Part shown: piece after piece, positions 44,602-57,469 of the stretch | Layout: each line of letters starts with the position of its first letter | Position numbering within the stretch: position 1 is the first letter of the stretch | Assembly: GCF_000013725.1 (NCBI RefSeq) | Contig: NC_007955.1 | Span: forward strand, 2,325,579-2,389,578 | DNA length: 64,000 nucleotides | Source of the DNA: Methanococcoides burtonii DSM 6242 | GTDB taxonomy: Archaea > Halobacteriota > Methanosarcinia > Methanosarcinales > Methanosarcinaceae | Direction: 5' to 3' | Position numbers and translations under genes: made by a program | Notes under the pieces: generated by a model | Database searches by the model: none | Told to the model about the DNA's origin: nothing | Seen by the model: only the letters and a program-made list of their open reading frames with translations

Positions 44602-46234
44602 GTAACTATTCAGCCACCTTTGCGTGCTAAAATCCCCCCACCTCAATCTATTTCATCTTCTGACATGGATTTTTACGAAAAAAGCAAGTAGTAGCATTCT
44701 ATTTAAGTTCACACCCAAAAAATCAATTGGTTTTGCCAAACAGGAGGTGAATGAACACGAAACGCAAAGAAATCCTAGCAGTTTATGAACAAGGTCCCGA
44801 AGCAGTTGTCACTCTTGTCACTACATTGTACGACATCATTGCTGAACAACAAAAGATCATAGAACTACAAGCTGCCAGAATAACCGAACTCGAAGAACGA
44901 GTTAAAAAGTTGGAAGAGCAACTCAAAAAAAACAGCCGAAACAGCAGTAAACCACCTTCAACTGATGTTTTTATTAATGAGAAACCAAAAACAAAAAGCA
45001 GACGAAAAAAGAGTGGAAAGAAACCAGGTGGTCAGAAAGACCATCCTGGAACTACTCTCAGAATGGTAGATGTTCCTGACGAAGTTATAATTCACAAAGT
45101 ACACAAATGTAGCAATTGTGAAAGATCGCTTGAAGATATAGAAGTTAAAGATCATGAAAAAAGGCAAGTATTTGACATACCTCCCATTAAACTTCAAGTA
45201 ACAGAACATCGTGCTGAAATCAAGTCCTGTCCTCACTGCGGTTGCAAGAACAAAGCTACTTTTTCAGAAAAGGTTAAACAACCCACGCAATATGGCTTAC
45301 GTCTTGCATCATTAGCAGTCTACTTACATGATTATCAATTACTTCCTTATGATCGCAGCTGTGAATTGCTAGCTGATGTTTGTGGATGTGAAATAAGTCC
45401 CGCTACTTTGGCTAGGGCAGAGAAGACATGTTTTGAAAAACTTGAAGATTTCGAACAGCAGATCAAGAACTTCTTAATAGAATCTCCTGTGATAAATTGT
45501 GATGAAACTGGTATGAGGATAGAAGGAAAACGACAGTGGTTACATGTTGCTTCTACAAACAAAATGACATGTTATTATCCTCATCAAAAAAGAGGCTCTG
45601 ACGCAATGAATGCGATGGGAATCTTACCAAATTTTAATGGTACAGTAGTTCATGATTTCTGGAAATCATATTACAAATATGATTGTGATCATTCGATCTG
45701 TAATGCTCATCTATTGCGAGAATTAACAAGTGTAAGCGAGAACGATGATCAATTGTGGTCAAAAGCTATGAATATTCTACTTATTGATGTCAAAAAGTCA
45801 GTTGACCAGATCCGAGAAATGTCTGGTTGTATGAAACCAGAGAGAATTAAAGAGTTTGAAGATTGGTACGGCCAGATAATTCATATTGGGATAGAAGAAA
45901 ATCCTCAACTTCAAGCCAAATCAAAAAATGATATTCTCAGATTTATGCATGATCTAAAAGTTCCATTTGAGAATAATCTTGCAGAAAGGGATGTGAGAAT
46001 GATGAAAGTACAGCAGAAGATATCAGGTACATTCCGAAGTATGCAAGGAGCATTAATTTTCTCGCGGGTAAGAAGTTACATTTCTACTGTTAAGAAGAAT
46101 CAAGTTCCTGTGATGGATGCAATTCGAAATGCAATTGCTGGAATGCCATTTATTCCAACAATTGTTTGAGCTTCTAATTTTTTTGTGTAAAGGTTGGTAA
46201 TACAGGATTGACTATAGGTAGGCTGAATAGTTAC
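44602..46234 (+). mobile_element. IS66-family insertion sequence, 1633 bp, single transposase gene
   Basis: The ends are GTAACTATTCAGCC and GGCTGAATAGTTAC, a perfect 14-bp inverted repeat. The element is flanked by the 8-bp direct repeat CAATTTCT, the duplication length expected for IS66. It carries only the large transposase (TnpC-like), without the small tnpA/tnpB helper genes of classical IS66. It interrupts a TnpB gene. Confidence 0.93.
44751..46169 (+). CDS. IS66-family transposase (TnpC-like), internally shortened
   Basis: The product is 472 residues. The N-terminal leucine-zipper-like helix (IAEQQKIIELQAARITELEE) and a Ser/Pro/Lys linker precede a zinc-binding region (CSNCERS, CPHCGCKN). 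The catalytic residues are Asp in INCDETGMRIEGKRQW, Asp in VVHDFWKSYYKYD and Glu in FENNLAERDVRMMK. Between EENPQLQAKSKN and ILRFMHDLKVPF the family usually has 25-30 more residues, by memory, so a small in-frame deletion is likely and activity is uncertain. A ribosome site (AGGAGGTG) directly precedes the ATG. Confidence 0.9.
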   Translation: MNTKRKEILAVYEQGPEAVVTLVTTLYDIIAEQQKIIELQAARITELEERVKKLEEQLKKNSRNSSKPPSTDVFINEKPKTKSRRKKSGKKPGGQKDHPGTTLRMVDVPDEVIIHKVHKCSNCERSLEDIEVKDHEKRQVFDIPPIKLQVTEHRAEIKSCPHCGCKNKATFSEKVKQPTQYGLRLASLAVYLHDYQLLPYDRSCELLADVCGCEISPATLARAEKTCFEKLEDFEQQIKNFLIESPVINCDETGMRIEGKRQWLHVASTNKMTCYYPHQKRGSDAMNAMGILPNFNGTVVHDFWKSYYKYDCDHSICNAHLLRELTSVSENDDQLWSKAMNILLIDVKKSVDQIREMSGCMKPERIKEFEDWYGQIIHIGIEENPQLQAKSKNDILRFMHDLKVPFENNLAERDVRMMKVQQKISGTFRSMQGALIFSRVRSYISTVKKNQVPVMDAIRNAIAGMPFIPTIV

Positions 46235-48892: not shown

Positions 48893-48910
48893 TAACAAGT
48901 TTACTTGTTA
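48893..48910. promoter_or_regulatory. Perfect palindrome upstream of the TolQ/CobN-type operon
   Basis: TAACAAGTTTACTTGTTA is two perfect 8-bp arms around TT. It ends about 28 bp before a TATA-like TGCATATAAT (48938-48947). The size and symmetry fit a dimeric regulator site. Which regulator binds is unknown. Confidence 0.5.
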
Positions 48911-48937
48911 CAATTCAGATAGTTTGTATTAAATTAT

Positions 48938-48947
48938 GCATATAATT
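48938..48947 (+). promoter_or_regulatory. Candidate TATA box for the operon
   Basis: TGCATATAAT lies about 43 bp before the leader frame and 100 bp before the DUF2162 start. It is AT-rich in context, so the assignment is tentative. Confidence 0.35.
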
Positions 48948-48989
48948 TCAAAATTTAGATCTTAATTATAAGCAAAAAGGGTGGTATAT

Positions 48990-49052
48990 GTGGTCATAAA
49001 TAAATACATTTCAGCATTTAGCTCGCCATGCTCAATGGGTGTTACTAAATGA
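48990..49052 (+). CDS. Possible 20-residue leader peptide overlapping the DUF2162 gene
   Basis: A GTG after AAAGGGTGGTATAT opens a 20-codon frame (VVINKYISAFSSPCSMGVTK). Its TGA overlaps the downstream ATG as ATGA, the arrangement of translational coupling. It may be a regulatory upstream frame or an accident of the ribosome-binding site. Confidence 0.35.
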   Translation: MVINKYISAFSSPCSMGVTK

Positions 49053-49723
49053 ACATGGTAATTCTCACAGTCATAGGTATCCTAATGGCTATCTTACTCT
49101 TTGGAGTGAAAACCGGGATTGGTTGTGGCTTCTCTAACCGTAGTCTGAAAAGCATTCTTCTATTGGCTTCCAGTTATCTTATTTTGTCCATTGTTCTGGG
49201 CAGTCTGATTGGATATGTGGACCAGTCGAACCTTGATGTTATTGCGAGCATGGGTATGTCTCTCCACGTCCTTGTTGCATTGTTACTTATTGGGGCAGGC
49301 ATCTATACCCAAAAACAATGGAATTGTGGCTGTGATGTTTCCCATAGGACATTCCTTGTGATCTCCCTGCCCTGTCCTGTCTGCCTGACAGCATTGTTCA
49401 TATCCTGTATGCTGCTGGCATCGTACATCGATATGAGTGGTACTCTGATAGGGTTGCTTGTGGGTGTAGTTTTTTTTATTTCTGTCGTTTCAACATCACT
49501 GCTTTGCAAGAAACTTGGCAAGACCCCCGAAACGCTCGGTAACATCATGATGATCCTTGGTATCTACTATCTAATGGGTGCCATTATTGTTCCTGCTTAC
49601 ATCAAAACGAAACAGATGAACATCCCTCAATATACTGCACCGCCTATTGATATTCTTCCCTTTGTGGTCTTCGCGGTCTTCATTGCCGGGGGATTTGTTC
49701 TGAATAATATACGGAGTAATTAA
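49049..49723 (+). CDS. DUF2162-family membrane protein
   Basis: The product is 224 residues with about six to seven membrane helices. It contains Cys residues in or near the membrane: C26 (GIGCGF), C93 and C95 (WNCGCD) and a C109-P-V-C112 pair (LPCPVCLTALF). DUF2162 is annotated as a predicted transporter. Here it heads a four-gene set with TolQ-like, TolR-like and CobN-like genes, so the thiols might handle a metal or redox partner. That role is inference. The stop is 3 bp before the next ATG. Confidence 0.8.
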   Translation: MNMVILTVIGILMAILLFGVKTGIGCGFSNRSLKSILLLASSYLILSIVLGSLIGYVDQSNLDVIASMGMSLHVLVALLLIGAGIYTQKQWNCGCDVSHRTFLVISLPCPVCLTALFISCMLLASYIDMSGTLIGLLVGVVFFISVVSTSLLCKKLGKTPETLGNIMMILGIYYLMGAIIVPAYIKTKQMNIPQYTAPPIDILPFVVFAVFIAGGFVLNNIRSN

Positions 49724-49725
49724 AA

Positions 49726-50349
49726 ATGGCTATTGATTCATTTTTGTTTCAGCTGATGTACACTGCATCAGCCGCGTTGTTATATCCAGTGGTCATACTG
49801 CTGCTTTTAGCAGTCGCAGCATCTCTTGGATTGATTGGTGAGTTCATTTCGGAATATGCAAAACGTCACCGCAATGTACGGGAACTTGAAAAAGTTGGTC
49901 GAAGCGTGCAGGAAAGCGTGAAAGCTTCTTCGCTTGACAATGCAGCAGAAAAATTGCATAGTCTTGATCAGAACCAATTGGTAACCTCATTTGCAAAAGA
50001 TGCTGGTGAATATCTGAAACAGAACTCAATTTCCTCTATTGACTGGCTTTCAGAAGAGTATGAGGTAAGGATGACAAAGCGTCTGGAGCAGACCAAGATA
50101 CTATCTACGGTTGCTCCAATGCTCGGTCTGATGGGTACTCTAATTCCACTGGGTCCTGCGCTCATTGGTCTTGCACAGGGTGATATCCTACAGCTTGCTA
50201 ACAACCTGATGATCGCTTTTGCAACAACAGTTCTCGGACTGTTCGCAGGTGTCGTAGGGTATGTCCTGACACTTATCAGAAAACGGTGGTACTGGCAGGA
50301 TATGGCAGATATCGATTATCTTATGGATTCCATGGGGAGTGACCAATGA
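49726..50349 (+). CDS. MotA/TolQ/ExbB-type proton channel protein
   Basis: The product is 207 residues. One N-terminal helix (about 12-38), a cytoplasmic helical loop (EYAKRHRNVRELEKVGRSVQ and on) and two helices follow. The first of these carries TILSTVAPMLGLMGTLIPLG, the TolQ/ExbB signature in which a conserved Thr/Pro line lines the proton path; the second is LMIAFATTVLGLFAGVVGYV. It probably forms a pentamer with the DUF2149 protein to harvest proton or sodium motive force. The next ATG overlaps its stop (ATGA). Confidence 0.88.
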   Translation: MAIDSFLFQLMYTASAALLYPVVILLLLAVAASLGLIGEFISEYAKRHRNVRELEKVGRSVQESVKASSLDNAAEKLHSLDQNQLVTSFAKDAGEYLKQNSISSIDWLSEEYEVRMTKRLEQTKILSTVAPMLGLMGTLIPLGPALIGLAQGDILQLANNLMIAFATTVLGLFAGVVGYVLTLIRKRWYWQDMADIDYLMDSMGSDQ

Positions 50350-50705
50350 GGAGAAAACGCTATCATAGGCCCGGCATCCTCTATGAGGAAGATGACCAGA
50401 ACCCTCTGACAGGTGTTGCGAATCTATTCGATATCGCCATGGTGTTCTCAGTAGCACTTATGATAGCTCTTGTCATGTCTTTCCAGCTTCCCGAACTTCT
50501 AAGTCCTACGGCGGATATAACCATTGTTAAAAATCCGGGTCAGCCTGATATGAAGATCATTGTCAAGGAAGGTCAGAATATAGAAGTACTGAATATGACC
50601 GATCAGATAGGCGGTGGTACCGGTGAGGCTCTTGGTACTGCCTATCAGTTGGCTGATGGAAGGGTCGTCTATGTTCCGGACTCAGGAAATGACACCGGAT
50701 CCTGA
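50346..50705 (+). CDS. DUF2149 protein, TolR/ExbD-like partner
   Basis: The product is 119 residues. A short basic cytoplasmic N-terminus, an Asp at the start of the single helix (NLFDIAMVFSVALMIALVMS, about 22-41) and an extracytoplasmic domain (DITIVKNPGQPDMKIIVKEG) give TolR/ExbD topology. The membrane-proximal Asp is expected to carry protons. Overlap with the TolQ-like gene implies a fixed stoichiometric complex. Confidence 0.8.
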   Translation: MRRKRYHRPGILYEEDDQNPLTGVANLFDIAMVFSVALMIALVMSFQLPELLSPTADITIVKNPGQPDMKIIVKEGQNIEVLNMTDQIGGGTGEALGTAYQLADGRVVYVPDSGNDTGS

Positions 50706-50805
50706 TCCTTTATTGGCTCTTTATGATGTGAAATATAATTTGAACATTATTAGAAAAAATTGAATTAAGAAGTGAATTGAATGTGGAATTATTAGTAGTT
50801 TGAAA

Positions 50806-50862
50806 CATCCCGATAAGCTGCCAAGCAAATTTCCGGGATGCTTCAGGCACATTATCGGGTGG
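50806..50862 (+). promoter_or_regulatory. Leader with two mutually exclusive hairpins; one masks the ribosome-binding site
   Basis: Hairpin A pairs CATCCCG (50806-50812) with CGGGATG (50834-50840). Hairpin B pairs CCCGATAA (50809-50816) with TTATCGGG (50852-50859), a perfect 8-bp stem. They share 50809-50812, so only one can form. B includes most of GGGTGG (50857-50862), the ribosome-binding site of the chelatase-like gene at 50868. This has riboswitch or attenuator logic; ligand and RNA class are unknown. Confidence 0.5.
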
Positions 50863-50867
50863 ATAAT

Positions 50868-53800
50868 ATGCAGAATATAAAACATCAATTATTACTATTA
50901 AGTGTTTTGATTTTACTGGCGATTTCGCCAGTGGTATCGGCAGACGAGAACAAAGTGAACATTGCGTATATTGCCTATTCTCCAAGTTCAGCTTTGGAAA
51001 TGGCTAGTCAGAGCCATGAACACAGTGATGAGATCGGGTATATTTACATACCCGCTTACAACACAACTTCCTGGGGACCAAGCGATGAATTGCTTAATGC
51101 TGCTCAAAATGGTATTCTGGACCAACAGGATGCGATCCTTTGTGACATGTTCTCTTCTGGTCTCTTCATCCCAATGAATGATACATTGTCAGCAGTGCAT
51201 GATAATGGTATTTCATTACTTGATATTCGCTCAACCGGTACTCCTGAATACTTTGATTACGTTTCAAATGGTTCTATTGACGATACCATTTGCAACTACT
51301 ATAACAATATGGGTACAGATGAAAATGGTGTTGAAAATGCTGAAAAGTTATTGAGTCACATCTCAATAGAATATGGCAACCAGCATGATATTACAGACGA
51401 ATGGATGGTCCTGATCACCTATATCGCCTATTCTCCAAGTACTGCTCTTGATCTTGGAAGCCAGAGCAATCTCCACCATGACGATATTATGTACACATAT
51501 ATCCCTGCTTACAATACGACTTCCTGGGGTCCTAGTGATGAATTGCTGGAAGCTTCACAGAATGGTCAGCTTGCTCGTCAGGATCTCCTTTTCTGTGACA
51601 TGTTCTCTTCTGGTCTCTTTGATCCAATGAATGATACATTCTCAGCTTTGCATGATAATGGAGCTTCGTTACTTGATATTCGTTCAACCGGTACTCCTGA
51701 ATACTTTGATTATGCTTCAAATGGGTCCATTGACGATATTATCTGCAACTACTATAACAACTTAGGAACAGATCAAGTCGGTGTAAAGAATGCGGAAGAT
51801 ATGTTGCTCTATCTTGCAGATGAATATGGCAATAAGCCAGATGTGACCGACAATTGGGTTTCAATTAAAGTCTCGTATATTGCTTATTCTCCAAGTATGG
51901 CCCTCGCAAATGCAAGTCAAAGCAATCCGTATGCTGAATTCATAGAATACAATTACATTCCTGCTTACAACACGACAACATGGGGTCCAAGCGATGAGCT
52001 TTTAGGATCTATATCCAGTGGTGTACTTGCAGAACAAAATGTCATTTTCTGTGATATGTTCTCTTCTGGTCTCTTTATTCCATTGAACGATACTTTTGCA
52101 GATATGCATGATAATGGTACTTCTTTACTTGATATTCGCTCAACAGACACTCCTGAATACTTTGATTATGTCTCCAACGGTTCGATCAATGATACGATCT
52201 GTAACTATTACAACAATATGGGCGTAAGCACATCAGCCGAATTAAGAAACGCTGAAAGCCTGCTTGTCTATATTGCAAAAGAGTATGGTGGGGAGACTGC
52301 TTTGACTGCTGGGTGGGATTATGCAAATGTTTCATCAAGTGGTCTTCCTGCAGTAGGAATTTACCATCCCGACTATGGCTACAAGTATTTTGAAACAACA
52401 GCTGAATATCTTGAATGGTATCAGCAGGAAAGCTCTGAAAGAAGGGTGTACGATCCTTCAAGACCTACTATCGGGATGTGGTTCCACCGGAATGACGTTC
52501 AGAATGGCCAGACCGGTGTGGTCGATGCTTTGATAGAAGACATTGAATCCAAGGACTGTAACGTTATAGTTGGTTTTGATACATTCGATGATATCGTTCA
52601 GTACTATTGTGACGAAAACGAGGAACCACTTGTACAGTCTGTTATTTCTCTCAAGAGCTTTAGACTTAATTACCTTGATCCTTTAAAAGGCGAGGAAGAA
52701 CTGAAAAAGCTCAATGTTCCTGTTCTAAGGGGAATAGTAGCAGAAATATCTGATTCTACCAATGTTGCAGATTCCAATAGTGGTATTCCCAATGCTCAGA
52801 TGGTGCGAAAGACGATATCACCAAATCTTGATGGTATCTTTGAATACATTCTGGTCGGGCAGTCAATATACGATGCTGAATCCATGAGTAGTGAATATGT
52901 ACCGATCGATGGACAGGTCGATTGGATAAGTAACAGATCTATCAAATGGGCAGAGTTGAAACTTGCTGAGAACGAAGATAAAAAAGTAGCTGTTATCTAC
53001 TACAACTATCCTTCAGGAAAGGATAACATCGGGGCAAGCTATCTCGATACCATCACAAGCATGAGGCTTTTGCTGGATGAAATGGATGATGCAAATTATA
53101 CTGTTTCTGATCTTCCTGCTAACAACAGCGAACTTCTTGAAAGGATATGGGCACAGGGTATAAACGCTGGTTCCTGGGCACCTGGTGTTCTTGATGAGAT
53201 GGTGGAGAACCGCACCGAATGGGGACTTCAGCTTATTCCGATGGAAACGTATAAGCAATGGTTCGAAGAAGAACTTCCTGAAGACCTAAGAAATTCCGTC
53301 ATTGAAGAATGGGGTGAGCCATGGGCAGAAGAGCTTCCTGAGAACAAGTCTGTGATGATATGGGAAAATGAAACGGGTCAGTATTTGGTCATTCCTGCTG
53401 TACAGTATGGAAATGTATTGTTAATGCCACAGCCAGCCCGTGGTTTCATGCAGAATGACGATACGCTGTATCATAGTAGTGTTGTTCCTCCGACCCATCA
53501 ATACATCGGTTTCTACCTATGGTTGAACAATGACTGGCAACCAGATGCTATCATACATTTCGGAACCCATGGAACACATGAATGGCTTCCTGGAAAGTCT
53601 TATGGTCTTGACAGAAAGACCGAATGGGCACCATTGTTGCTTCAGGACCTTCCGAACATCTATCCTTACATAGTTGCAAATGTCGGAGAAGGTCTGACCG
53701 CTGAATACCGTGGTAATGCACTTATCGTAGACCACATGACCCCTACACTTGAGCGTTCGGGAAGTTATGGTAAGATCGAAGAGTTGTCTCGTTTGACACA

Positions 53801-56120
53801 GATCTACTATGGACCTGAGATGAGTCCCGAGACAAAGGCTGCTTATCAGGCACAGATAGTTTACGAGATCGGAGAAACACACATCGATTCTGACCTCGGG
53901 CTTAATATAACCGATCTGGCAAGCTACAATGAGTCCGAGTTCAGTAGTTTTGTTAAAAATGTGCTGCATGAGTATATTGAAGAGATCGAGGGTGAGAATA
54001 TCCCTTATGGTATGCATATCTTCGGTGAAACGCCTGCTACGAACACTACCGGTTATCTTCATGATGAATTGTCTCTGATGGTCAGATCGATGCTCAAGAG
54101 TGGATTTGAGGGGTCAGTTCTGTCAGCATTCTATCCTGAAGATGATTATCCTCTGGGGGTTCCTTTCAATGACACACGTGTAGATCAGATGCTCTGGGAA
54201 GTTGTAACCAATGGTACTGATGTGAATGAGTCCCAGATGATGTTCTATGGCAAGACCAATGAGTCTGTAACTGTGGATCTCGTGAAAGGTCTCGTTTATA
54301 GGGATCGGCTTGTAGATTCTTCAATGGAAATGGACCGGCTTTTATCTGCACTCAATGCAGGTTTCATTCCGGCAGGTCCGGGCACTGATCCTGTGATGAA
54401 TCCCGAGTCTGTGCCTACTGGCAGGAACTTCTATGGTGTGAATCCTGAGCTTTATCCTTCTAAGGCTACATGGTTAGTTGGCAAACAAATGGCGATTGAT
54501 CTGATAGATGCAACTTATGACAGCGAAAATGGTACGTATCCAGATACGATTGCATTCTCAAGGTTCGGTGTGGAGTTCATACGTGATCATGGTACTCTCG
54601 AAGCTGCAATAATGTACACACTTGGTGTCAGGCCGGTGTGGGATGAAGATAATGGATATGTGATCGGTGTCGAAGAAATACCTGAAGAGGAGTTGCTTCC
54701 AAACTATGATCCTTCAGTTCCCGGGAGACCTCGTATCGATATCGTTTATCTTACTGCCGGAATGCGTGATGCTTTCCCGAGCAAGGTGCAGATGATAGAT
54801 GATTCGATAAGACTTGCCAATAGTATCGAACCGGTGAATTATCCAAACTATGTACGTGAACATTCAGATGCAAACTATGAGCAGTACTATGAAGAGCTGT
54901 CTAAGACAATGGATGAGGAAACTGCATCCAATCTTGCAAGGAAGTTGTCCACTATGCGCTGTTATGCGGTGCGTGATGGAACTTATGAGATCGGAACTGG
55001 AAATGCAATGGGTGCAAGTGGTTCCTGGGAGTCAGATGAAGAGATCGTAAATATCTATCTTGAAAAGATGGGATTCCTTTATGGTAGTGAACTTTGGGGA
55101 TATGAGTTCAGTCAGTCCCTTATAGCCAATCTCATGAATGTAGATGCTTCAGTTCATTCTGTAAACTCCAATCTATATAATTCCATAGACAATGATGATT
55201 TCTTCCAATATTTTGGAGCATTGAATCTGGCGATAAGGAATCTTTCTGGAGATAACCCTGATTCTTATGTTGTGGATGGTAGTGACCCTGAGATGACTGA
55301 GCTCTCTACTCTGAAAGAATACTTTATGAAAGATTTACGTACCACTGCTTTTAACCCGAAATGGATCGAAGGTATGAAGGGGTCAGGTTATGCAGGTGGC
55401 AGGATGTTTGCAGAAATTATTGATAATGTATGGCTTGCGGAAGTTTCGGATCCAGAACTGGTTGATGATTCTACCTGGGAAATGCTTCACAATACATATG
55501 TCAATGATGAGATGAGGGAATGGTTCAATGAGAATAATCCGGGTGCTTATCAGTCCATTACAGGAAGGATGCTTGAGGCTGCAAGAAAGGATTACTGGGA
55601 TGCTCCTCAGGAGGTCATTGACCATCTTGTCAAGGAATATGTTGAATCCGTCGTTGAAAATGGTGTGACCTGCTGCCATCACACGTGTGGCAACATTCCT
55701 CTTGATGACTATGTTGTGAATCAGGCACTTGCTTCAGGGGCTGTTAGTATGAGCACTTTAGATGATTATCAGCGTATCTTGGAGGATGCGACACAACGAG
55801 AGGTTCCAAAGCAGGAAGTTTCCAGCACTGCTGTTAGAAGTAATGGTGGCAGTTCTTCAGGAAAAGCGGTTGTCTCTGAAAGTGCGAACCAGAATTCAAG
55901 TTCAACAGGTGGCTATGACGTTGATCTTGAGAGTGATCCTTCTCCTGTAAAAGCTGCTGATTCTCCTGACAATTATGTGGAAGGTTATGAGATGACCTCT
56001 GAATCGATTTCTGAAACCGAAGTGGAAAGTTCTCCTTTCTCAACATCTGATATTGTGGGGACCTTGATCCTTCTAGTATCTGTCGGGATGATCTATGTGG
56101 GGTTCATGAGAAAGAAATAA
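50868..56120 (+). CDS. Secreted, membrane-anchored CobN/HmuS-type chelatase-like protein with triplicated N-terminal module
   Basis: The product is 1750 residues from the ATG at 50868 (after GGGTGGATAAT); an upstream ATG at 50838 lies inside the leader hairpin. The N-terminal signal peptide (LLLLSVLILLAISPVVSA) and a C-terminal helix (VGTLILLVSVGMIYVGFMRK) place the body outside the cell. Residues about 30-180, 181-331 and 332-480 are three copies of one module (YIAYSPSxAL, YIPAYNTTxWGPSDELL, CDMFSSGLFxPxNDTF, LLDIRSTxTPEYFDY). The CobN core follows, with HFGTHGTHEWLPGKSYGLDR near residue 897 and VTCCHHTCGNIPLDDYV near 1600. Cytoplasmic CobN inserts cobalt into corrinoids. The secreted location and the TolQ/TolR-like partners upstream instead fit HmuS-type tetrapyrrole chelatase or dechelatase systems. 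Substrate is unproven. Confidence 0.85.
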   Translation: MQNIKHQLLLLSVLILLAISPVVSADENKVNIAYIAYSPSSALEMASQSHEHSDEIGYIYIPAYNTTSWGPSDELLNAAQNGILDQQDAILCDMFSSGLFIPMNDTLSAVHDNGISLLDIRSTGTPEYFDYVSNGSIDDTICNYYNNMGTDENGVENAEKLLSHISIEYGNQHDITDEWMVLITYIAYSPSTALDLGSQSNLHHDDIMYTYIPAYNTTSWGPSDELLEASQNGQLARQDLLFCDMFSSGLFDPMNDTFSALHDNGASLLDIRSTGTPEYFDYASNGSIDDIICNYYNNLGTDQVGVKNAEDMLLYLADEYGNKPDVTDNWVSIKVSYIAYSPSMALANASQSNPYAEFIEYNYIPAYNTTTWGPSDELLGSISSGVLAEQNVIFCDMFSSGLFIPLNDTFADMHDNGTSLLDIRSTDTPEYFDYVSNGSINDTICNYYNNMGVSTSAELRNAESLLVYIAKEYGGETALTAGWDYANVSSSGLPAVGIYHPDYGYKYFETTAEYLEWYQQESSERRVYDPSRPTIGMWFHRNDVQNGQTGVVDALIEDIESKDCNVIVGFDTFDDIVQYYCDENEEPLVQSVISLKSFRLNYLDPLKGEEELKKLNVPVLRGIVAEISDSTNVADSNSGIPNAQMVRKTISPNLDGIFEYILVGQSIYDAESMSSEYVPIDGQVDWISNRSIKWAELKLAENEDKKVAVIYYNYPSGKDNIGASYLDTITSMRLLLDEMDDANYTVSDLPANNSELLERIWAQGINAGSWAPGVLDEMVENRTEWGLQLIPMETYKQWFEEELPEDLRNSVIEEWGEPWAEELPENKSVMIWENETGQYLVIPAVQYGNVLLMPQPARGFMQNDDTLYHSSVVPPTHQYIGFYLWLNNDWQPDAIIHFGTHGTHEWLPGKSYGLDRKTEWAPLLLQDLPNIYPYIVANVGEGLTAEYRGNALIVDHMTPTLERSGSYGKIEELSRLTQIYYGPEMSPETKAAYQAQIVYEIGETHIDSDLGLNITDLASYNESEFSSFVKNVLHEYIEEIEGENIPYGMHIFGETPATNTTGYLHDELSLMVRSMLKSGFEGSVLSAFYPEDDYPLGVPFNDTRVDQMLWEVVTNGTDVNESQMMFYGKTNESVTVDLVKGLVYRDRLVDSSMEMDRLLSALNAGFIPAGPGTDPVMNPESVPTGRNFYGVNPELYPSKATWLVGKQMAIDLIDATYDSENGTYPDTIAFSRFGVEFIRDHGTLEAAIMYTLGVRPVWDEDNGYVIGVEEIPEEELLPNYDPSVPGRPRIDIVYLTAGMRDAFPSKVQMIDDSIRLANSIEPVNYPNYVREHSDANYEQYYEELSKTMDEETASNLARKLSTMRCYAVRDGTYEIGTGNAMGASGSWESDEEIVNIYLEKMGFLYGSELWGYEFSQSLIANLMNVDASVHSVNSNLYNSIDNDDFFQYFGALNLAIRNLSGDNPDSYVVDGSDPEMTELSTLKEYFMKDLRTTAFNPKWIEGMKGSGYAGGRMFAEIIDNVWLAEVSDPELVDDSTWEMLHNTYVNDEMREWFNENNPGAYQSITGRMLEAARKDYWDAPQEVIDHLVKEYVESVVENGVTCCHHTCGNIPLDDYVVNQALASGAVSMSTLDDYQRILEDATQREVPKQEVSSTAVRSNGGSSSGKAVVSESANQNSSSTGGYDVDLESDPSPVKAADSPDNYVEGYEMTSESISETEVESSPFSTSDIVGTLILLVSVGMIYVGFMRKK

Positions 56121-56299: not shown

Positions 56300-57469
56300 A
56301 TGATAACAATGTTCATTGATCCCATCTGTAAAGTTCATATGTCTGAAAAGAGTGACTTTGTCACTGAATATGGTGGCAAAACATACTATTTCTGTTCTGG
56401 TAAGTGCAAGAGCAAGTTCGACAGGCTTGAAAAAAGCGTTATACGCCTTAAGCGCAATATCGGTGATCGTGAGAAAATATCTTTTGGCAGGTTGAACAAG
56501 GAGATAATCAAGACTGGAATATGCACTTTGTGTGGTGCATGTGTTGCTTCCTGTGAATATGTCACTTTTGTGGACAACAAGCCAAAACTTGTGGGCAAAT
56601 GCACTGCCTGTGGGGTTTGTTATAATCAATGTCCTAGAACCATTACCAAGGAAGAGGACCTCATTGGAAAGATAAGGTACGCTTATGCTGCAAGGTCCGC
56701 GATCCCCGGGGTAAAAGGGCAGGATGGTGGCGTTGTAACTTCAATGCTTGCATATGCACTTGATGAAGGGTTGCTTGATTGTGCGGTCGTTACGAAACGA
56801 TCTAAGGATGAACCCTGGAAGGCTGAGCCTGTGATAGTTAGAACCTCTGCTGAAGTGCTTGAGTCTGCTGGCAGCATCTATACCCATAGTATGACACTGG
56901 AACCTTTGATGAGCGCCATAAAGCAGGGGATGGGGAGCATTGGATTTGTTGGTCCAAGTTGCAATATAGATGCAGTACACAAGATGCAGACAAGTTCTTA
57001 TGGTTTTCTTCATCTTTTCTTAAGGGCAAGGGTGCTTAAGTTCGGTCTGTTCTGTATGGACAGCTTTGAACATGACGGGATTAAGGAATTCGTTGAGTCA
57101 AAGGGTATGGACCTTAATGATATCCACTCTATGAAGATCCGAAAAGGTCTTTTTGAGCTTGGTACTTCTGAAGGTATGAAGAGCTATGATCTTTCAGAAT
57201 TAGATCAGTACCGATGCAGTTCATGCAAATACTGTACGGACATGGTTTCAGAGAATACTGATATTTCATTTGGTGGCGTGGGAACCCCGGTTGGTTGGAC
57301 AACAGTGCTTATAAGGTCCTCTGTCGGGTATGAAATATTTAATGAAGCGGTAGATAGTGGTTATCTGGAAGCCCGTCCTCTGGAAAAAGCTGAAATGGAT
57401 CGAACGATCAACCTTGCAAAGATGAAAAAGGTACAGATGTACACGTTGAACCGTAGGCAACAGGGATAA
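56300..57469 (+). CDS. YHS/TRASH-ferredoxin-FrhB fusion (F420-type oxidoreductase subunit)
   Basis: The product is 389 residues (386 if it starts at the ATG at 56309). Residues 4-45 form a TRASH/YHS metal-sensing module (DPICKVHMSEKS, YYFCSGKCKSKFDRLEK; C10, C32, C36). A two-cluster ferredoxin follows (CTLCGACVASC, CTACGVCYNQC). The rest matches FrhB/FpoF-type proteins (GKIRYAYAARSAIPGVKGQD, GGVVTSMLAYALDEGLLDCA, GFVGPSCNIDAVHKM, CSSCKYCTDMVSENTDISFG), which bind FAD and exchange electrons with F420. A heavy-metal-type domain on an F420 oxidoreductase is unusual. It lies 180 bp after the chelatase-like gene behind a terminator, so it is separately transcribed. Confidence 0.85.
   Translation: MITMFIDPICKVHMSEKSDFVTEYGGKTYYFCSGKCKSKFDRLEKSVIRLKRNIGDREKISFGRLNKEIIKTGICTLCGACVASCEYVTFVDNKPKLVGKCTACGVCYNQCPRTITKEEDLIGKIRYAYAARSAIPGVKGQDGGVVTSMLAYALDEGLLDCAVVTKRSKDEPWKAEPVIVRTSAEVLESAGSIYTHSMTLEPLMSAIKQGMGSIGFVGPSCNIDAVHKMQTSSYGFLHLFLRARVLKFGLFCMDSFEHDGIKEFVESKGMDLNDIHSMKIRKGLFELGTSEGMKSYDLSELDQYRCSSCKYCTDMVSENTDISFGGVGTPVGWTTVLIRSSVGYEIFNEAVDSGYLEARPLEKAEMDRTINLAKMKKVQMYTLNRRQQG

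Follow-up and report, generated by a model that had tools for sequence, protein, structure and literature searches.

A conserved module of a secreted chelatase-like protein and a TolQ-like pair, with a structured leader, in Methanococcoides burtonii and related archaea: candidate (de)chelatase of cobalt tetrapyrroles

The closest described systems to the locus analysed here are the Hmu systems of Bacteroidota (HmuYRSTUV), in which a secreted and anchored class I chelatase homologue, HmuS (PDB 9d26), adjoins proteins of the TolQ/ExbB and DUF2149 families (P. gingivalis HmuS, PMC13227078; annotation of the hmu genes, PMC10434189). In the published scheme HmuU and HmuV power the outer-membrane receptor, and the same paper on de-chelation by HmuS describes the role of archaeal HmuS/CobN homologues as unclear and complete hmu operons as absent from archaea (PMC12583661). 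A third type of CobN-like protein, the BtuS family, was proposed by Rodionov et al. 2003, as cited in work on Bacteroides BtuS, to act in metalloporphyrin salvage (PMC6460266). The TonB-CobN cluster of Trichlorobacter (Geobacter) lovleyi was noted to include a CobN of unassigned role that has no CobS/CobT beside it (pGLOV01/pSZ77, PMC3403914). Among methanogens, BtuS of M. barkeri responds to the iron source and the entire operon is lacking (PMC10846266), and CobN1 of Methanothermobacter marburgensis was studied under nickel limitation (PMC12350162). Here we describe a four-gene module, designated T-U-V-S, in a stretch of 64,000 nucleotides from Methanococcoides burtonii DSM 6242 (NC_007955.1, positions 2,325,579 to 2,389,578; hereafter the window). 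The kind of system is already known from Hmu and BtuS; what is new is its archaeal variant, with a leaning towards cobalt and a leader element, for none of which a description was found in a literature search that fell short of most subscription journals. We propose, with about an even chance of being right, that the module encodes a putative extracytoplasmic, ion-motor-driven (de)chelatase complex for cobalt tetrapyrroles belonging to the HmuS/BtuS superclade.

The four genes lie co-directionally on the + strand at 49049-56120. Pfam matched all of them, in agreement with an earlier note on this DNA that had named the same domains. They code for T, a polytopic membrane protein of family DUF2162 (49049-49723, E 2.5e-66); U, a channel subunit of the MotA/TolQ/ExbB family (49726-50349, MotA_ExbB E 2e-9); V, a DUF2149 protein (50346-50705, E 5e-35); and S, a class I chelatase-like protein of 1750 amino acids, predicted to be secreted and anchored at its C-terminus (50868-56120, CobN-Mg_chel E 2e-284). 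The start of S is an ATG at 50868 following GGGTGG; an in-frame ATG farther upstream, at 50838, would lengthen S by 10 residues, though it overlaps the leader. The gap between V and S, put at about 160 bp in the earlier note, measures 162 bp and holds a structured leader instead of plain spacer. The locus shares with Hmu its single strand, T-U-V order, HFGTHG motif and an S that clades with HmuS. It differs by the lack of HmuY, by a T that is not HmuT, by triplicated head-like domains in S and by the dedicated leader in Methanosarcinaceae, the family of the host. Since no TonB-dependent receptor was found in the genome and T is DUF2162, no complete hmuYRSTUV operon is present. In T. lovleyi the set and order of T-U-V-S are identical, T is DUF2162 and S is of DDFFQY type; yet that cluster occurs in a Gram-negative host with TonB receptors and ExbBD-TonB, is set in cobalamin genes, and no S leader was found in it.

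The linkage of the four genes, whose absence from relatives the earlier note had named as a refutation, proved to be conserved. In a survey of 217 genomes of the phylum, DUF2162 exceeded its cut-off in 63 genomes, all of which (63/63) also had DUF2149 and CobN; the latter two occurred in 72 and 138 genomes, respectively. V lay within 2 kb of T at roughly 66 of the 71 T loci (counted from tables), the exceptions being mostly at contig ends, and 40 retrieved neighbourhoods displayed the order T>U>V with S directly downstream or, in some lineages, upstream. The gene order is far beyond chance. A DUF2162 profile scan of 84,980 species genomes returned 69 loci, a lower bound since it was based on one CPxC-centred peptide pattern. 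These loci occurred in archaea (Methanosarcinaceae, Methanothrix, anaerobic methanotrophic groups ANME-1/-2, Methanoregulaceae and Methanocalculus) and in a few bacteria (Trichlorobacter, Geobacteraceae, Methylacidiphilum and one metagenome-assembled genome of Syntrophobacterales). A tblastn search of plasmids with DUF2162 gave no match and was too insensitive, as the DUF2162 of T. lovleyi is plasmid-borne and was found through S. In cells without an outer membrane, T-U-V-S separates the inner-membrane core of Hmu-like systems from the receptor, and its conservation speaks for a TolQ-like pair that works for the chelatase and not for a TonB receptor. Methanococcoides carry a tandem pair of S types, S1 (TQEW) and S2 (THEW), as at locus L128 (11791-20557); the window retains only S2 and others only S1.

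Protein S was clearly set apart from cytosolic chelatases. A tree of 63 chelatase cores placed it in a clade of 42 members, split from 21 cytosolic CobN/ChlH proteins with a Shimodaira-Hasegawa-like approximate likelihood ratio (SH-aLRT) of 100. This split was repeated in a 48-row tree; HmuS and ChlH form long branches, and a quick method of tree building was used. Members of the clade were Bacteroidota HmuS, the proteins of T. lovleyi, Runella and Pseudoalteromonas, and archaeal secreted forms, HmuS standing beside the archaeal S proteins and not nested among them. By a simple hydropathy threshold, an N-terminal hydrophobic segment was present in 71/82 secreted S proteins against 1/24 cytosolic ones, and a C-terminal transmembrane segment in 73/82 against 0/24, some of the remaining secreted sequences being cut by contig ends. 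Likewise, a CxxxxC[GD]N motif was seen in 61/82 secreted and 0/24 cytosolic proteins; in the window it reads CCHHTCGN (amino acids 1602-1609, 55671-55694), a form common in secreted S and absent from cytosolic CobN. Only two CobN-like genes occur in the genome, both of secreted type (window S and an orphan paralogue at locus L005), and neither cytosolic CobN nor CobT was found there, so that the cytoplasmic CobN with CobS/CobT partners weighed in the earlier note was not encountered. Compared with the CobNST cobaltochelatase, S thus has the same core (PF02514, amino acids 458-1583, 52239-55616) with CobN-type active-site residues, but it is secreted and anchored, belongs to another clade and would work with an ion motor in place of the AAA+ partner. 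The N-terminus of S consists of three tandem alpha/beta head-like repeats of about 147 residues (amino acids 29-476, 50952-52295), a triplication that the earlier note had missed along with the structure of the leader; their number ranges from 0 to 3 in relatives. The closest PDB match of S was HmuS, as was that of an AlphaFold2 model of the repeats (9d26, E 4e-6), with low template modelling scores since the domain arrangement differs; the head/neck region, which bears on the Met79/His254 site 1 and the Met-rich insertion of HmuS, did not align in the comparison of the two. Archaeal CobN-like proteins of cytosolic type, marked by LLGCCCYFGTHGG, were encoded at three loci; those of one locus (L156) adjoin FecCD-type permeases and periplasmic binding proteins.

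Active-site residues bear on whether S acts on heme. HFGTHG (at amino acid 897), the motif of the catalytic His538 of HmuS, was kept, as were the CobN-type DDxxQY and EW residues. Where HmuS has LSLDHxxEFMGG with His1209 and Glu1212, window S reads IDNDDFFQYFGA (DDFFQYFG at amino acid 1443) and displays Asp1444 and Gln1447, in common with CobN and T. lovleyi S; the HmuS-like DHxxEF was found instead on the orphan paralogue. By its sequence signature S is not a HmuS, and the earlier interpretation needs correcting here, as it does for DUF2162, which has no detectable similarity to HmuT. An iron system, in which S would strip extracellular heme of its iron in the manner of HmuS and FeoB would import the metal, is favoured by the nearest solved relative being a heme de-chelatase, by a CobN, TolQ-like and DUF2149 set identical to hmuSUV (PMC10434189), by the change of M. 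barkeri BtuS levels with the iron source (PMC10846266) and by FeoB in 63/63 genomes. We nevertheless judge it unlikely, given the Asp/Gln exchange, the location of DHxxEF on the paralogue, the dissimilarity of T to HmuT and the fact that FeoB lay within 10 kb of the module in 2/63 genomes, which is chance level and led to rejection of a FeoB link.

At the membrane, U scored 37.6 bits with PF01618 (gathering cut-off 22.9) and its homologues displayed an invariant MGTLIP, a conserved TTV in the channel helices and T138 at 100%. V has one N-terminal transmembrane helix, with Asp29 (NLFDxAMVF) conserved in 99% of 85 sequences; it is TolR/ExbD-like by architecture, and by analogy Asp29 may be catalytic. 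The Pfam family of U and, in V, a single transmembrane helix with a conserved Asp are shared with TolQR, ExbBD and MotAB stators, from which the pair differs by the DUF2149 nature of V and by a host without outer membrane. In T. lovleyi, U-V occurs together with a separate ExbB-ExbD-TonB within one cluster, which argues that U-V is not merely a TonB energiser; since the M. burtonii genome lacks a TonB receptor, CobT and cytosolic CobN, U and V most likely energise S and T. U-V pairs without T or chelatase were recorded at loci L173 (8919-9901) and L172 (8157-9069), adjoining other large predicted secreted proteins, and in archaea the ion-motor pair may work with further partners outside the cell.

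The CPxC pair of T, already noticed in the earlier note, was nearly invariant among 49 homologues (P108, C109 and P110 invariant, C112 in at least 90%), and C26 and K21 were also among the near-invariant residues. An AlphaFold2 model of T (mean predicted local distance difference test 85) gave no significant fold match in the PDB. Profile comparison of DUF2162 with Bacteroides HmuT detected no similarity, and an equation of the two was rejected; a NicO/DsbD/CcdA-like permease was rejected as well, on the lack of profile similarity to the Runella/Spirosoma proteins and of a PDB fold match. As T shows no similarity to HmuT or to the NicO/DsbD-like protein that fills the same slot in Runella, different proteins seem able to occupy this slot, as would be expected of a membrane partner specific for a metal or substrate.

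In the mechanism that we propose, S would be exported and held by its C-terminal helix, and a metal-tetrapyrrole outside the membrane would be processed in its class I chelatase cavity, with the His of HFGTHG and the Asp/Gln of DDxFQY. U and V would form a TolQ/TolR-like ion-driven stator whose conserved transmembrane Asp and Thr pass force to S or T. It would take the place of the ATP-driven CobST/ChlID motors, since there is no ATP outside the cell. T, with its CPxC pair, may move either the freed metal or reducing equivalents through the membrane. The likeliest substrate would be a cobalt tetrapyrrole (a cobamide or similar), its cobalt passing to energy-coupling factor transporters such as CbiMNQO, and translation of S would probably be controlled by the leader, which encloses the ribosome-binding site. 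If this proves true, S would be the first enzyme known to remove cobalt from a tetrapyrrole. The module suggests that salvage of metals from tetrapyrroles is a general function outside the cytoplasm, cobalt being the metal of the DUF2162 type, in organisms that need cobalt and nickel cofactors for their methane metabolism. At two loci of one genus the module adjoined exporter-type half-ABC proteins and a flavodoxin, a protein proposed elsewhere to donate electrons to HmuS.

Cobalt is favoured for the DUF2162 type because modules of relatives adjoin cobalt or cobalamin genes and FeoB proximity is at chance; nickel and heme are live rivals. In T. lovleyi, cobalamin biosynthesis genes and CbiMNQO surround the module, related bacteria have CobQ, CbiB or BtuF next to it, and in ANME-1-type archaea the neighbours are CbiM/N/Q/O, CbiT, CbiF, CbiA, CobQ, CobT or BtuCD, several of these names being readings of the sequences and not Pfam calls. 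CbiM was found within 10 kb of the module in 6/63 genomes, against about 1.3 expected. The earlier note had left corrinoid, heme and F430-like substrates side by side; these neighbourhoods point to the first, and the second lost ground with FeoB.

Several observations weigh against the cobalt (de)chelatase. CbiM proximity was limited to two families, no cobalt gene adjoins the module in Methanosarcinaceae, where no context gene decides the substrate, and it is other families and a small number of bacteria that supply the cobalt link. Cobalt is held very tightly in corrins, which makes its de-chelation chemically demanding. V did not display profile similarity to the one ExbD with which it was compared (hhalign E 0.54, shallow profiles), no expression or biochemical data for the locus were found, and the iron response of M. 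barkeri BtuS mentioned above counts on the same side. So does a Runella slithyformis plasmid, on which a U-V-S set with DUF2149 but without DUF2162 lies in a hyp/NiFe-hydrogenase cluster and is probably a nickel version. A nickel system, with S drawing the metal from extracellular F430-type tetrapyrroles or nickelophores, would agree with this set and with the abundant F430 made by methanogens. The M. marburgensis CobN homologue, abundant only under nickel limitation (PMC12350162), speaks for it too, its membership of the S clade being an assumption. Against nickel, the Runella T is not DUF2162, and DUF2162 loci, where context exists, adjoin cobalt rather than nickel genes; we regard this system as improbable.

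A further objection comes from TUV-linked S proteins at five loci in which the HxGxHG catalytic motif is lost, suggesting binding only or an altered function for that subtype. This loss would suit a scheme in which S serves for binding and intact corrinoids or another tetrapyrrole are imported by an ion-driven T-U-V, the metal being kept. BtuCD/BtuF-like genes beside three modules and the heme handover from HmuS to HmuTUV proposed for P. gingivalis (PMC13227078) agree with such import. The motif is intact, however, in window S and most relatives, the commoner neighbour, CbiMNQO, is a metal-ion transporter, and T (224 residues) found no transporter fold; import of the intact molecule thus seems to us as improbable as the nickel system.

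The leader of S (50794-50870, + strand) is an element of 75-80 nucleotides found upstream of S in many Methanosarcinaceae; in the window it scored 70.5 bits with covariance model R1 and its folding z-score was -4.4. It consists of a covarying stem of 9-10 bp, a GCC-x-x-CAAGC loop and a second hairpin, and its last nucleotide falls on the S start codon. Stem sequences vary by lineage (CATCCCGG, ACACTCCC, GCATTTCGG, CACTTCGG), and the second, short hairpin (TTATC..GATAA) encloses the ribosome-binding site and also covaries (G65-C85 to A65-U85). In an alignment of 36 sequences 93% of cells pair and 77 two-sided changes were counted against at most 17 in slid controls, counts inflated by the kinship of the sequences. 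Four of five single sequences folded with z-scores of -4.4 to -5.5, the loop-inverted one of locus L092 with -2.3. With a covariance model the element was found in 50 of 81 Methanosarcinaceae genomes, in 1-4 copies each. About 60 of 67 matches examined start an S-type chelatase gene at the terminal ATG; the others precede very short, truncated or S-remnant frames. A search of 37 genomes, of which 35 belong to other families, gave one weak match outside Methanosarcinaceae (L061); it is inverted and immediately precedes an S gene. Matches in Rfam 15 were at chance level, none near a gathering score, and no RNA family there fits the leader; inspection by eye for a pseudoknot between loop and ribosome-binding site found no consistent covariation.

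These features make the leader a candidate archaeal cis-regulatory RNA. An element acting as DNA (a cruciform or protein-binding site, palindromic through template switching) keeps a sizeable minority share of the probability. Template switching at hairpins is known to produce inverted loops. Six loci including L092, as well as L061 of another family, carry the loop flipped within its stem, possibly a flip-flop or phase switch. Moreover, G-U intermediates in the stem are few against the 77 two-sided changes. Yet the position fixed on the start codon, the covarying hairpin around the ribosome-binding site, the invariant loop and the strong folding z-scores speak for a regulatory RNA. A ligand of this RNA, if any, would reveal the substrate. 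The fuller picture for Methanosarcinaceae, in which a new cis-regulatory RNA, possibly a tetrapyrrole or metal riboswitch, is combined with TolQR-type-driven secreted (de)chelatases taking cobalt (or nickel) from extracellular cofactors, is tentative and, taken as a whole, rather doubtful.

Other features surround the module, whose locus is syntenic with those of M. vulcani and M. alaskense. Upstream, directly 3' of a TATA-like stretch, lies the palindrome TAACAAGTttACTTGTTA (48893-48910), a possible operator of the T-U-V operon. No second copy exists in the genome at up to two mismatches, so that an operator regulon was rejected; degenerate forms occur upstream of T in some other Methanococcoides. 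A 20-codon upstream open reading frame, MVINKYISAFSSPCSMGVTK (48990-49052, + strand), has a stop codon overlapping the T start (ATGA), and a similar peptide occurs in several Methanococcoides, both being weak readings made by eye. Directly 3' of S, at 56300-57469, a gene coding for a YHS and FrhB-type F420 oxidoreductase, kept in Methanococcoides only, may possibly supply reductant. Finally, near-identical transposase copies were found near both S loci of the genome (window 44751-46169; L005 14755-16236).

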